Positions 28,038 through 32,360 of a DNA stretch of 50,530 nucleotides are shown piece after piece (the stretch's first letter is position 1; the number at the start of each line of letters is the position of its first letter). Location: NCBI GenBank assembly GCA_007128005.1, contig SKYF01000060.1, positions 1-50,530 on the forward strand, read 5' to 3'. The notes below the pieces were generated by a model. It saw nothing but the letters and a program-made list of their open reading frames with translations, was not told the DNA's origin and ran no database searches. Source of the stretch: Bdellovibrionales bacterium (lineage in GTDB: Bacteria; Bdellovibrionota; Bdellovibrionia; Bdellovibrionales; UBA1609). The translations under genes and the position numbers were made by a program.

Positions 28038-28853
28038 GTGCAAAGCCTTATGAGAACAGAGAGTCAGCAAGATTTACAACAGGAAGGCCACTATCGGGCC
28101 TCCATCCTAGCGATTGGCACAGAAGTGACTTCGGGTGAGATACTCAATAAAAACGCGACTTGGCTGGCCCGTGAGCTTGAGGCCTTGGGGGTGGAGGTGA
28201 ATTTGCACCTGGCCATTCCCGATGATCCCCTGTTGATGAAAGAGGGCCTTGAGTTTGCGTCTTCGCACAGTCAGATCCTCTTTCTGGTCGGGGGGCTTGG
28301 GCCCACTCAAGATGACTTGACTCGGGAGGTGGTTGCTCGCTGGCTTTCTGTGCCCTTGGAGTTCTCAGAGCAGGTTTTTTTGGAGTTGAAGGCAAAGCTG
28401 GAAGCTCGGGCTGTGGCTCTGCGGACCAATCATCGACGGCAATGTGAGTTTCCCTTAGGGGCTGAGAGCTTGGTCAATTCAGTTGGGACTGCGCGGGGTT
28501 TTTTTGCGCGCAGTGGGAAGCTGGCCGGAGGGCTATTTGCCTTGCCCGGCCCTCCGCGAGAGCTTGAGCCCATGTGGGAGCAGCAAGTGGTGCCAAAGCT
28601 TCAGGCCTTAGATATCCAGCCCCCCTATCAATTGGATATCTGGTGCTGTGAGGGGGTGCCCGAGTCTGAGGTGGCAGAGCTGTGTGAAGAGCTCCTTAAA
28701 GAAGAACTCAATCACCCCCAACCCGCCAGGCTAGGCTACCGCGCCTCTCTACCCAAAGTCTACGTCAAGCTCTGGTGGCCGAGGCAGAGGCAAGGGGAAA
28801 TCAGCTCGGTGAAGACAAAGTTGAGTCAAGCTCTGGCTCCATGGCTGAAGTGA
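28038..28853 (+). CDS. CinA/MoaB-type molybdopterin-binding domain protein
   Basis: 271 aa from a GTG with AAGAGGAG just upstream. Residues 20-185 are the MoCF-biosynthesis-like domain of CinA: ILAIGTEVTSGEILNKNATWLA, LVGGLGPTQDDLTREV and LPGPPRELEPMWE are all clear. The C-terminal PncC amidohydrolase domain of full CinA is missing, so it is the short form, probably an ADP-ribose or nucleotide pyrophosphatase. Its last 53 bases overlap the convergent glycosyltransferase gene. Confidence 0.88.
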   Translation: MQSLMRTESQQDLQQEGHYRASILAIGTEVTSGEILNKNATWLARELEALGVEVNLHLAIPDDPLLMKEGLEFASSHSQILFLVGGLGPTQDDLTREVVARWLSVPLEFSEQVFLELKAKLEARAVALRTNHRRQCEFPLGAESLVNSVGTARGFFARSGKLAGGLFALPGPPRELEPMWEQQVVPKLQALDIQPPYQLDIWCCEGVPESEVAELCEELLKEELNHPQPARLGYRASLPKVYVKLWWPRQRQGEISSVKTKLSQALAPWLK

Positions 28854-29682
28854 GCAGAAGGGACACTTCTTCAAAATGGGTCATATTGTTGTGCTTCTGG
28901 TAGCCTTTGAGCAGAATGCGGCCTTTTTTCAGCAAAACCTGACGCAGAGCTTGGTGTTCCGATAAGGAGAGGTGAGGGCTGCTGAGGTGTTCAGCAAGGG
29001 CCTTGACGCGCCAGTAATCCATGGCCTTAAAGCGTCTGGAAAGCTGATCCTCATGGCCCCCATACTTGATAATTAAAGGTTCCTCAATATAGCCCACATC
29101 CCATTGGGCGCAGATTCTCAGCCACAGCTCGTAATCCTCACAGACGGGAAAGTCCTCGCGAAATCCCCCCAGCTCGAGGAACAAGTCCCTTTGAATAAGG
29201 CTTGTGGACGGAGAAATGCAGCACAGAGGCAGGCACTGTCTGAAGATTCTTCCGCCCTGTTTTTGGTGTTTGCGCATGGGATTGACCCTCACGCCTCGAC
29301 GCACCCAGAGTTCATTGCTATGGATCAGGGGCAGATGGGGCTCTTTTTTAGCAAGGTTCATCTGCTTTTCTAGTTTTTCTGCAAGCCACTCATCATCGGA
29401 GTCCAAAAAGGCCAACCAAGGGCTCTGGCACAGCTTTGCAGCTTGGTTTCGGGCACTGCTGACCCCCTTGTTCTCCTGCCAGAGGTAAAAAAACTGACCG
29501 CTTTCCATTTCACGGGCGTAAGTCTCTTGAAACCACTCTCCGCTTCCATCTTCAGATCCATCGTCAACCAGCCAAAGTTGCCAATCAGAAAAACTTTGGC
29601 TCTTTACGGACTCAATGGCCCGATTCAGTGTTGAGCGACGGTTGTGGCTTGGAATGATCACACTGACAGTGGATATTTTCAT
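28801..29682 (-). CDS. Glycosyltransferase family 2
   Basis: 293 aa from the ATG at 29682, behind AAAGG; the longer frame to 29895 runs into the decarboxylase gene on the other strand. GT-A fold: SVIIPSHNRRSTLNRAIESV, the nucleotide-binding LVDDGSEDGS, the DxD-type LAFLDSDDEW and the acceptor-site acid in VCEDYELWLRI. It transfers a sugar from a nucleotide donor, probably for surface polysaccharide. No membrane segment. Not next to other polysaccharide genes; the 3' end overlaps the CinA-type gene by 53 bp. Confidence 0.9.
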   Translation of the reverse strand: MKISTVSVIIPSHNRRSTLNRAIESVKSQSFSDWQLWLVDDGSEDGSGEWFQETYAREMESGQFFYLWQENKGVSSARNQAAKLCQSPWLAFLDSDDEWLAEKLEKQMNLAKKEPHLPLIHSNELWVRRGVRVNPMRKHQKQGGRIFRQCLPLCCISPSTSLIQRDLFLELGGFREDFPVCEDYELWLRICAQWDVGYIEEPLIIKYGGHEDQLSRRFKAMDYWRVKALAEHLSSPHLSLSEHQALRQVLLKKGRILLKGYQKHNNMTHFEEVSLLLTSAMEPELDSTLSSPS

Positions 29683-29773
29683 CAAGATCGCCTTTAGCAG
29701 CAAAAAGTCCTTGGTCAACTTGATTTTTTTCAGTCTTGCCAGTAGGTCTGACCCTTTTGGAGGTTTTAGGCCA

Positions 29774-30736
29774 TTGTTTTTTGAAGGTTCCGAAAAAAAA
29801 CTAGAAGTTGTTGTCACTTTGGGCAAGGGCTTAGAGTCGTTGCGCTCTTTGGGTGATGAGTATTGGTCGGAGATTGTTGCAGCATCCCAAGCCAAGATCC
29901 TTTCAAAGATGTCTTCGGCCTCATGTGATGCCTATTTGCTTTCAGAGTCCAGTCTCTTTGTTTGGGACGATCACTTTACGATGATCACTTGCGGTCAGAC
30001 GACTTTAGTGCCCGTGGTGAAGCTGTTTCTTCAATCCGTACCATTGGACAGGGTTGAGAGCCTCATTTTCGAACGAAAAAATGAATACTTTCCCCATCGT
30101 CAGACCACCGACTTTTACGAGGACATTGGACATCTACGGCAGCTTATGCCAGGTAAGGCCTATCGCTTTGGTCGGGCTGAGGACCATCACCTTTTTTTGT
30201 TCCATCTGGATCGTCCTTATTCTCCCCCTAAGGAGGACGTGACTCTCGAGATCCTTATGTATGATCTACAGGCAGAGTCTGCACGGGTGTTTAGTTCAGG
30301 TCAGCATGACTCCACAAAAATTTGTGAGTTGACTTCGGTGGATAAGATATTTTCAGGATTTCAAATTGACGACTACGTTTTTGAGCCCTGTGGTTACTCC
30401 CTGAATGCACTCAACAATGAGAAGTACTACACCATTCATGTCACTCCTCAGGAGGCGTCAAGTTACGTGAGCTTTGAAACGAACTATGATGTCTGCCAGG
30501 AGTTGCCTCAGACAATTCAAAGAGTGATTGAGGTTTTTCGTCCGGGTTCTTTTGACGTGGCTTTATTTCACCCGGAGCGCTCTTTGCCCATCCAGGTTCC
30601 TGGATTTGAGTTGAGAAGTCAGACATCCCAGGAACTCAAATGTGGCTATGGTGTGACCTTTACCCACTATGAAAGCCCCCATCGCCCTGTGGAAGGGGCC
30701 TATGAAATTAAGGAGTGGACCAGTGCCAGACTCTAA
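29774..30736 (+). CDS. S-adenosylmethionine decarboxylase, eukaryotic (AMD1) type
   Basis: 320 aa pyruvoyl enzyme making decarboxylated SAM for spermidine synthesis. It resembles the animal/plant enzyme, not bacterial SpeD: LFFEGSEKKLEV at the start, the self-cleavage site LLSESSLFV (Glu58-Ser59; Ser becomes pyruvoyl), TCGQTT with Cys73, the processing Ser and His in PCGYSLN and YYTIHVTPQ, and VSFETN. Ser-to-Cys spacing (14) equals that of the human enzyme (Ser68, Cys82). The TTG at 29774 has GGAGG ten bases upstream and aligns with the human N-terminus; other in-frame starts (TTG 29711, 29720; ATG 29654, 29615) exist. Overlaps speE by 14 bp. Confidence 0.92.
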   Translation: MFFEGSEKKLEVVVTLGKGLESLRSLGDEYWSEIVAASQAKILSKMSSASCDAYLLSESSLFVWDDHFTMITCGQTTLVPVVKLFLQSVPLDRVESLIFERKNEYFPHRQTTDFYEDIGHLRQLMPGKAYRFGRAEDHHLFLFHLDRPYSPPKEDVTLEILMYDLQAESARVFSSGQHDSTKICELTSVDKIFSGFQIDDYVFEPCGYSLNALNNEKYYTIHVTPQEASSYVSFETNYDVCQELPQTIQRVIEVFRPGSFDVALFHPERSLPIQVPGFELRSQTSQELKCGYGVTFTHYESPHRPVEGAYEIKEWTSARL

Positions 30737-31589
30737 ACAGTGGATCAGTGAAAACCATAGGGATCAGCAGATGTTGAGTTTCCCTATAAAAGAAAAACTT
30801 TTTTCTCAGCAGAGCCAATTCCAAAAAGTAGAGATATTTGAGACCACAAGTCATGGTCGTCTACTGGTCAACGATGGCTGCTTTATGCTCAGTGAAAGGG
30901 ATGAGGCCATTTATCATGAGATGATGGCCCATGTGCCGCTGTTTGTTCACCCCAAGCCTCAAAGAGTGTTGGTGATTGGGGGTGGTGATGGGGGAACAGC
31001 CCGAGAGGTCTTGCGCCACTCCAGGGTGGAGCAGGTGGTGATGGTGGAGATTGACCGGGTGGTGGTTGAGGCCTCTAGGGAGTATTTACCCCAGACAGCC
31101 TCCCGCCTTGAGGACCCTCGTTTAAAACTGGTGATCGACGATGGGGTGAAGTTTGCCCGTGAGGCCTCAGAAAAGAGTTTTGATGTGGTTCTAGTGGATT
31201 CCACAGATCCAGTGGGTCCAGCCCAGCCCCTCTTTGGCCCAGAATTTTATGGGGACATTTCAAGGCTGTTGAATGAGGGAGGGATTGTGGTAGCTCAAGG
31301 GGAGTCGCCCTTTTACGAGCTTGCCACTCAGCGTTCGATGCTTCAGGTGATGGGAGGTCATTTTCCAGTGGTGATGCCCTACAACTTTTGTAACTTGACC
31401 TATCCGGGGGGGCTGTGGAGTTTTATGTGGGCTTCGAAGGGCCCTCACCCCTTAAAGGACTTTGAACCGCAGCTCGTTGAAAAGTTGGAGTTGTCCCTAC
31501 ACTACTACAATGCCGAGATTCACAGGGGCTCTTTTGCTTTGCCACAGTTTCAGCGCCAGGCCCTAAGTGACTGTATCCGAGGGGCCTGA
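30723..31589 (+). CDS. speE: Spermidine synthase
   Basis: 288 aa from GTG 30723, which has AAGGAG seven bases upstream and gives the standard SpeE length; ATG 30669 would overlap the decarboxylase by 68 bases. It transfers the aminopropyl group of decarboxylated SAM to putrescine. Visible motifs: RLLVNDGCFMLSERDEAIYHEMMAHVP, the SAM loop VLVIGGGDGGTAREVL, the acidic VEID, and the catalytic LVDSTDPVGPAQPLF. It is translationally coupled to the SAM decarboxylase, giving both final steps of spermidine synthesis. Confidence 0.95.
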   Translation: MPDSKQWISENHRDQQMLSFPIKEKLFSQQSQFQKVEIFETTSHGRLLVNDGCFMLSERDEAIYHEMMAHVPLFVHPKPQRVLVIGGGDGGTAREVLRHSRVEQVVMVEIDRVVVEASREYLPQTASRLEDPRLKLVIDDGVKFAREASEKSFDVVLVDSTDPVGPAQPLFGPEFYGDISRLLNEGGIVVAQGESPFYELATQRSMLQVMGGHFPVVMPYNFCNLTYPGGLWSFMWASKGPHPLKDFEPQLVEKLELSLHYYNAEIHRGSFALPQFQRQALSDCIRGA

Positions 31590-31601: not shown

Positions 31602-32360
31602 GTGTCTGAACAGCCCCCGGTCAGCGGAACTTTTTCAGCTTACACCAAGAGCCGAATTCAGTGGGAAGAGCCCTTTCTCGTTGGGGGGGAGATTTTGACC
31701 GCCTCAGAGGTTGTGAGCTTGGCCAAGCCTCTGCTCACTGAGGCCAGGCGTCAGCGCATAGAGGAGGTTCTGTGTTGGCGCAGCCTTCAGTTTGCTCCAG
31801 TTCTTGAGAATATTCACGATCAGGGCAACATCAGCGCCGTCATGCGTAGCAGTGAGGCCTTTGGCTTTATCAACTTTCATCTTTTAGAAACAGAACAGCA
31901 GCGCTTCAAAGCGGCCAACCGAGTGAGCAAAGGAGCTGACAAGTGGTTAGATGTTCAGATTCACTCGACGGCCGAGGACCTTGTGGAGTTTATGAGCCAA
32001 AAGGGCTTTAAGATCTACGCAACACACTTGAGTGCGGTCTCTCGGCCTGTGGCAGAGCTGGACTTCAGTCAGCCAACAGCGATTGTCTTGGGCAACGAAA
32101 AAAAGGGAGTCAGTGAGTCCTTAAGAGAGCTCTGTGATGGGGATGTGATAATTCCCATGTATGGTTTTTCACAGAGTTTTAATATCTCCGTGGCGGCAGC
32201 TCTTGTATTTCAGACCGCCTTTGAGAAGAGGCTTGCCTCTAGGAATGATGCGTTGAGTGGGAAGACAGAGTTGACCCTCGAACAAGAGGTCCAGTTGAGA
32301 GCCAACTACTATTTGCGTTCTCTTAAAAGGCCAGAAGCTATTTTAGGTCTGCGCTCTTAA
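31602..32360 (+). CDS. SpoU/TrmH-family RNA 2'-O-methyltransferase
   Basis: 252 aa from GTG with GGAGGAG nearby. SPOUT knot motifs: motif 1 DQGNISAVMRSSEAFGF, motif 2 TAIVLGNEKKGVSE, motif 3 IPMYGFSQSFNISVAAAL. The motif order and N-terminal helix fit TrmH, which makes Gm18 in tRNA. rRNA targets cannot be excluded. It ends four bases into the convergent exported-protein gene. Twelve bases behind speE, so likely same transcript. Confidence 0.9.
   Translation: MSEQPPVSGTFSAYTKSRIQWEEPFLVGGEILTASEVVSLAKPLLTEARRQRIEEVLCWRSLQFAPVLENIHDQGNISAVMRSSEAFGFINFHLLETEQQRFKAANRVSKGADKWLDVQIHSTAEDLVEFMSQKGFKIYATHLSAVSRPVAELDFSQPTAIVLGNEKKGVSESLRELCDGDVIIPMYGFSQSFNISVAAALVFQTAFEKRLASRNDALSGKTELTLEQEVQLRANYYLRSLKRPEAILGLRS

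Follow-up and report, generated by a model that had tools for sequence, protein, structure and literature searches.

The window analysed here, 50,530 nucleotides of contig SKYF01000060.1 (assembly GCA_007128005.1) from a Bdellovibrionales bacterium, very probably encodes a working class 2 S-adenosylmethionine decarboxylase (AdoMetDC) that would serve spermidine synthesis. On sequence evidence, its gene, speD, and the adjacent speE would form an old operon inherited within the phylum, with possible exchange between families, rather than a recent import from a eukaryote. Decarboxylases of this class are otherwise known from animals, plants and trypanosomes. A first-pass annotation had proposed a eukaryotic-type AdoMetDC coupled to a bacterial SpeE, and sequence, residues, predicted fold and operon all bear this out.

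Position and start of the class 2 speD gene

The decarboxylase gene, its predicted chains and its divergent neighbour are located as follows.

28801..29682, minus strand: family 2 glycosyltransferase (PF00535, 5.1e-30), divergent neighbour outside the system, probable ATG start at 29682
29759..29763, plus strand: GGAGG, ribosome-binding site of class 2 speD, 10 nt 5' of the TTG, read from the sequence
29774..30736, plus strand: class 2 S-adenosylmethionine decarboxylase proenzyme, 320 aa, TTG start (PF01536, human 1msv, AlphaFold2, Foldseek)
29774..29947, plus strand: predicted beta chain, residues 1-58, last residue Glu58 (alignment to human, potato and T. brucei beta chains)
29948..30733, plus strand: predicted alpha chain, first residue Ser59 (29948-29950), the would-be pyruvoyl residue (Glu-Ser-Ser invariant in 75/75 core bacterial relatives and in the eukaryotes)

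The TTG start proposed earlier was confirmed at 29774, with GGAGG at 29759-29763. A start codon at this position, TTG included, is usual among relatives, where a heuristic count at the equivalent place gave 38 ATG, 22 TTG and 12 GTG. A longer reading of speD from ATG 29615 was disfavoured: the glycosyltransferase probably starts at 29682, leaving a 91-bp divergent intergenic gap, which argues against the upstream start. The N-terminus had also been described as shorter than that of the human enzyme; it is shorter, but by only 4 residues.

The window protein has the profile, residues and predicted fold of class 2 enzymes

The Pfam profile PF01536 (SAM_decarbox) matched the window protein with an E-value of 6.2e-74 and 249.5 bits (cut-off 22.2), over profile positions 3-342 of 343, and PF02675 (AdoMet_dc, class 1) gave no match in this protein. 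A PDB search returned eukaryotic class 2 AdoMetDCs only, the best being human 1msv (E 3.3e-38). Both the PF01536 and the 1msv match lie far above chance level. The equivalog profile TIGR00535 (SAM_DCase) scored 188.9 bits, under its cut-off of 233; the protein is, by sequence, homologous to the TIGR00535 group yet outside that curated set.

We aligned the window protein with the human, potato and T. brucei PDB chains and with 75 core bacterial relatives. All the animal-type processing and active-site features quoted in the first-pass annotation (Glu-Ser, Cys73, GYS, IHVT, VSFETN) were present. The cleavage pair is Glu58-Ser59, and Cys73 lies 14 residues past Ser59, like human Ser68 and Cys82, so that the claimed identity of Ser-to-Cys spacing with the human enzyme holds. 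Ser209 of GYS corresponds to human Ser229, His222 of IHVT to His243 and Glu235 of VSFETN to Glu256. The processing and catalytic residues kept in the window protein are F3, E4, E7, E58, S59, C73, F203, S209 and H222; in human numbering, the residues kept comprise F7, E8, E11, E15, E67, S68, C82, F223, S229, H243, D174, T176, E178 and E256. Among the core bacterial relatives, E67, S68, S69, C82, R114, F223, S229 and H243 (human numbering) were invariant in 75/75.

Two positions depart from the human enzyme. Glu247, a ribose contact in the human enzyme, is Gln226 in the window protein, and the bacterial relatives have Q in 47/75 and E in 27/75. By these data Glu247 characterizes the human enzyme rather than the family at large. 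Since the site is variable in the bacterial branch, we do not take the change to exclude class 2 membership; it could alter kinetics. At the buried acidic putrescine site of the putrescine-stimulated animal subtype (human E15, K80, D174, T176, E178 and E256), E11, D155, T157, E159 and E235 are kept and K80 is replaced by I71, isoleucine being found in T. brucei as well.

An AlphaFold2 model computed from a 36-sequence alignment reached a mean pLDDT of 93.4. Foldseek against the PDB placed human proenzymes on top (1msv E 7e-29, TM 0.85; 1msv/1jl0 TM 0.85-0.88), followed by T. brucei and potato, and the class 1b enzyme of T. maritima matched the model only weakly (E 1.7e-3). The window protein is thus confidently predicted to adopt the two-domain, four-layer proenzyme fold.

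Taken as a whole, the window protein resembles human AMD1 (1msv/1jl0), potato 1mhm and T. brucei 5tvf in its single-chain two-domain proenzyme fold, Glu-Ser site, catalytic Cys, Ser229 and His243 equivalents and adenine-stacking Phe pair. Its identity with the human enzyme is 36%, and that between human and potato is 37%. Unlike these three enzymes it is encoded in a bacterial operon with speE, and unlike the human one it has an N-terminus about 4 residues shorter and carries the Glu247 to Gln and Lys80 to Ile changes; its score falls under the TIGR00535 cut-off. Class 1b AdoMetDCs such as T. maritima SpeD (1tlu/1vr7) perform the same reaction but comprise a single cleavage unit, about 130 aa long; the sequence similarity of T. 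maritima SpeD, and of the class 1b SpeD-SpeE fusions of family f3 described below, to the window protein is barely detectable. Class 2 AdoMetDC is regarded as a fusion of two class 1b units.

speE overlaps speD and completes a predicted spermidine pathway

Downstream of speD, the following features were found.

30710..30715, plus strand: AAGGAG, likely speE ribosome-binding site within the 3' end of speD, read from the sequence
30723..31589, plus strand: speE, spermidine synthase, likely GTG start, the longest ATG open reading frame running from 30669 (NF002010, TIGR00417, PDB match)
31602..32360, plus strand: SpoU/TrmH-family RNA methyltransferase (PF00588, 7.6e-35), downstream neighbour

The window SpeE matched the equivalog profiles NF002010 (1.2e-106, 356 bits, cut-off 260) and TIGR00417 (3.3e-92, 309 bits, cut-off 250), and its best PDB match was T. 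maritima SpeE. The overlap of speD with a normal bacterial speE noted earlier is real, measuring 14 nt from GTG 30723 or 68 nt from ATG 30669. The GTG appears the likelier start, with AAGGAG preceding it at 30710-30715. The methyltransferase has no known functional link to speD-speE.

The draft genome (2.57 Mb, 99.4% complete, 212 contigs) carries class 2 speD in single copy. No class 1 speD (PF02675) was found in these 212 contigs, a draft in which a second speD could be missed. The same genome encodes a biosynthetic arginine decarboxylase equivalog, SpeA (861.7 bits), and an agmatinase equivalog (222.6, cut-off 174.3); a search of the genome for an OKR_DC_1-type decarboxylase found none. Since class 1 speD is absent and both arginine decarboxylase and agmatinase are present, an arginine-to-spermidine route is predicted. 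In this route, SpeA would convert arginine to agmatine and agmatinase would convert agmatine to putrescine. The proenzyme would cut itself between Glu58 and Ser59, and Ser59 would become the covalently bound pyruvoyl group that decarboxylates S-adenosylmethionine. The adjacent SpeE would then move the aminopropyl group onto putrescine, yielding spermidine, with class 2 SpeD taking the place of the class 1 enzyme that this organism lacks.

Class 2 speD is widespread in the phylum

A sister genome carries class 2 speD at 78% identity, and the gene is present in 40 of the 47 genomes of the family, in 50/141 of the order and in 90/369 of the phylum Bdellovibrionota, where the carriers belong to eight families (91 matches less the one in genome G198). 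The phylum was assigned from the nearest named relative, a Bdellovibrionales MAG 78% identical to the window protein. Weak PF01536 matches in G198 and in contig C2 of G179 were rejected as class 2 speD, being ABC transporter ATPases. Given the sister gene and the 40/47 family carriers, contamination or a recent eukaryotic insertion was rejected. A mobile element as carrier was also rejected, as plasmids, phages and viral contigs searched for class 2 AdoMetDC gave no match. The first-pass annotation had asked whether the family arose in bacteria or the gene moved in from a eukaryote; this was the right question, but a gene so lineage-wide (90/369 genomes, eight families) did not move recently into the window organism.

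In the phylum, speE almost always comes next after class 2 speD: it lies directly downstream on the same strand in 68 loci, where its first aligned codon falls a median of 16 nt past the stop of speD. Class 1 AdoMetDC was found in 159/369 genomes. Class 1 and class 2 genes are largely mutually exclusive, eight genomes having both against about 39 expected under independence (lists compared by eye, relatedness uncorrected). In three of these eight double carriers that were examined (loci L102-L104), the class 1b domain sits in a membrane/MFS-SpdSyn-type cluster. At these loci (L102, L103 and L104, from G217, G214 and G254) it is fused to a membrane segment and followed by a SpdSyn-like open reading frame of about 570 aa.

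Other arrangements were observed. Families f3 and f20 (L081-L090, L106, L107) have class 1b SpeD-SpeE fusions of about 430-465 aa in place of class 2 speD-speE. A divergent class 2 homologue (L059:4959-5879, plus strand; G135:C205), with E8 changed to N, D174 to R and E178 to Q, has no speE nearby and lies between HIT-like and large peptidase-like genes (neighbours read by eye). The sole PF02675 match of genome G015 (8e-4) may be its own class 2 gene (L066:3193-4131), whose product outscores all other class 2 proteins against the class 1b profile.

Trees of SpeD and SpeE

In unrooted SpeD trees, one branch splits the bacteria from the three eukaryotes (SH-aLRT 97; bootstrap/SH-aLRT 88/98 in a second tree). 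The window protein is sister to that of its congener, and family f12 forms one clade (99/95). Placement among the known bacterial decarboxylases, which the first-pass annotation had named as an outcome that would overturn its reading, did not occur with respect to class 1; the window protein groups with other bacterial class 2 enzymes. A single clade for the window's order was not rejected by the AU test (p 0.59), and vertical descent within the phylum is therefore allowed. A tree in which the bacteria branch beside the human enzyme was likewise not rejected (p 0.61), and the trees thus leave the position of the bacteria with respect to eukaryotes unfixed.

In the SpeE tree, a single clade (SH-aLRT 99) holds all 70 partners of class 2 SpeD and includes neither the SpeE of the f3 fusions nor eukaryotic spermidine synthases (SpdSyn). 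This indicates that speD and speE travelled together within the phylum but did not pass between bacteria and eukaryotes as a pair. The tree gave no support to an operon transfer involving eukaryotes, eukaryotic SpdSyn grouping with Leptospira SpeE instead. In this small sample, the sister position of the Leptospira SpeE (L112) to the eukaryotic enzymes has an SH-aLRT of 96. In Leptospira interrogans, a 288-aa protein annotated as AdoMet decarboxylase (L147:1002-1868, minus strand) lies between speD and speE; it combines a SET-like N-terminal half with a class-1-like AdoMet_dc C-terminal half.

Class 1b similarity in bacterial class 2 proteins

Against a class 1b profile made exclusively from sequences of other phyla, the bacterial class 2 proteins scored a median of 4.9 bits (n=75; 99th percentile of shuffled sequences 2.3), and the human, potato and T. 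brucei enzymes 0.1, 2.2 and 1.9 bits. The bacterial copies thus retain a little more similarity to class 1b than do the three eukaryotic ones. In profile-profile comparison, the class 1b match covers the class 2 C-terminal half (FEPCGYS...IHVTP against FsPhGvS...IHTWP), and a second, weak match falls in the N-terminal half.

One protein of the phylum joins both kinds of similarity.

L060:4449-5246 (G136:C43), minus strand: 266-aa class-2-like protein (PDB matches of its halves)

When its halves were compared with the whole PDB, the N-half matched human class 2 (E 0.004) and the C-half the class 1b structure 2iii (E 0.014). The N-half has a Glu-Ser site and a Cys; the class-1b-like C-half is without a cleavage Ser of its own. 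The gene lies directly downstream of one encoding an 861-aa MFS-spermidine-synthase-like fusion. From these matches the G136 protein is a possible class 1b/class 2 intermediate. Its AlphaFold2 model is poor (pLDDT 56). A match to this protein in G204 proved to be an acyl-CoA-synthetase-like protein.

Origin of the enzyme and alternative functions

We give roughly even chances to a single acquisition from an early eukaryote by an ancestor of part of the phylum, in which the gene was placed 5' of speE, to spread afterwards through the phylum by descent and by lateral transfer. A eukaryotic source of bacterial class 2 genes is the published phylogenetic inference, as quoted in PMC10407285. It fits the patchy occurrence of class 2 in a phylum with class 1 genes elsewhere, and the lack of class 2 matches in plasmids, phages and viral contigs; moreover, the SpeE partners lie away from the eukaryotic spermidine synthases, hence speD alone links to eukaryotes. 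Against it, class 2 is deep and broad in the phylum, with eight families and one speE clade, the window protein is as far from the human enzyme as human is from potato, and the bacteria lie outside every sampled eukaryotic lineage, although only three eukaryotes were sampled and the AU test allows nesting. The opposite course, in which two class 1b units fused in such bacteria to give class 2, later received by a eukaryotic ancestor, is plausible though on balance doubtful. The higher class 1b scores of the bacterial enzymes, the two-sided matches of the G136 protein and the presence in the phylum of class 1b, 1a-like and class 1b-SpeE fusion genes all speak for it. However, eukaryotic branches are longer, so that their loss of similarity, seen in three eukaryotes, may reflect rate only; the G136 protein, poorly modelled, may instead be a derived copy that has degenerated; and passage of the whole operon should group eukaryotic SpdSyn with these SpeE, a grouping that is absent. 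We suggest only tentatively that eukaryotic class 2 derives from a class 1b fusion in relatives of Bdellovibrionota, with intermediates (G136, the operon) surviving and the published direction reversed.

A role outside spermidine synthesis, as a shifted arginine or ornithine decarboxylase or with another aminopropyl acceptor, seems very improbable for the window protein. Homologues of class 1 SpeD have undergone shifts of this kind, as documented in PMC10407285, and a class 2-like gene does sit beside an MFS-SpdSyn fusion in the phylum (G136, L060). But a canonical speE adjoins the window gene in a genome with no other speD found, the adenine-stacking Phe and all catalytic residues are kept, and SpeA already fills the arginine decarboxylase role.

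Relation to earlier work and significance

Bacterial class 2 AdoMetDCs are said to have been found enzymatically functional by Li et al. in 2019 (Biochem J), and some of them reportedly act outside spermidine synthesis, paired with an MFS-SpdSyn fusion. The window enzyme is likewise a class 2 enzyme in a bacterial genome, but its partner is a plain speE rather than the fusion reported for some of those cases; in our set, G136 is the exception. According to PMC10407285, with reference to Li et al. 2019, class 2 AdoMetDC is encoded in some bacteria and phylogeny points to a eukaryotic source. The occurrence in bacteria is thus already published; what may be new is the breadth in the phylum, the speE clade specific to these operons and the G136 protein.

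The Bdellovibrionota operon, its matching speE clade and the class 1b traces provide the bacterial sampling needed to retest the direction of transfer. Furthermore, bacterial class 2 enzymes offer simple subjects for the study of self-processing and putrescine control.
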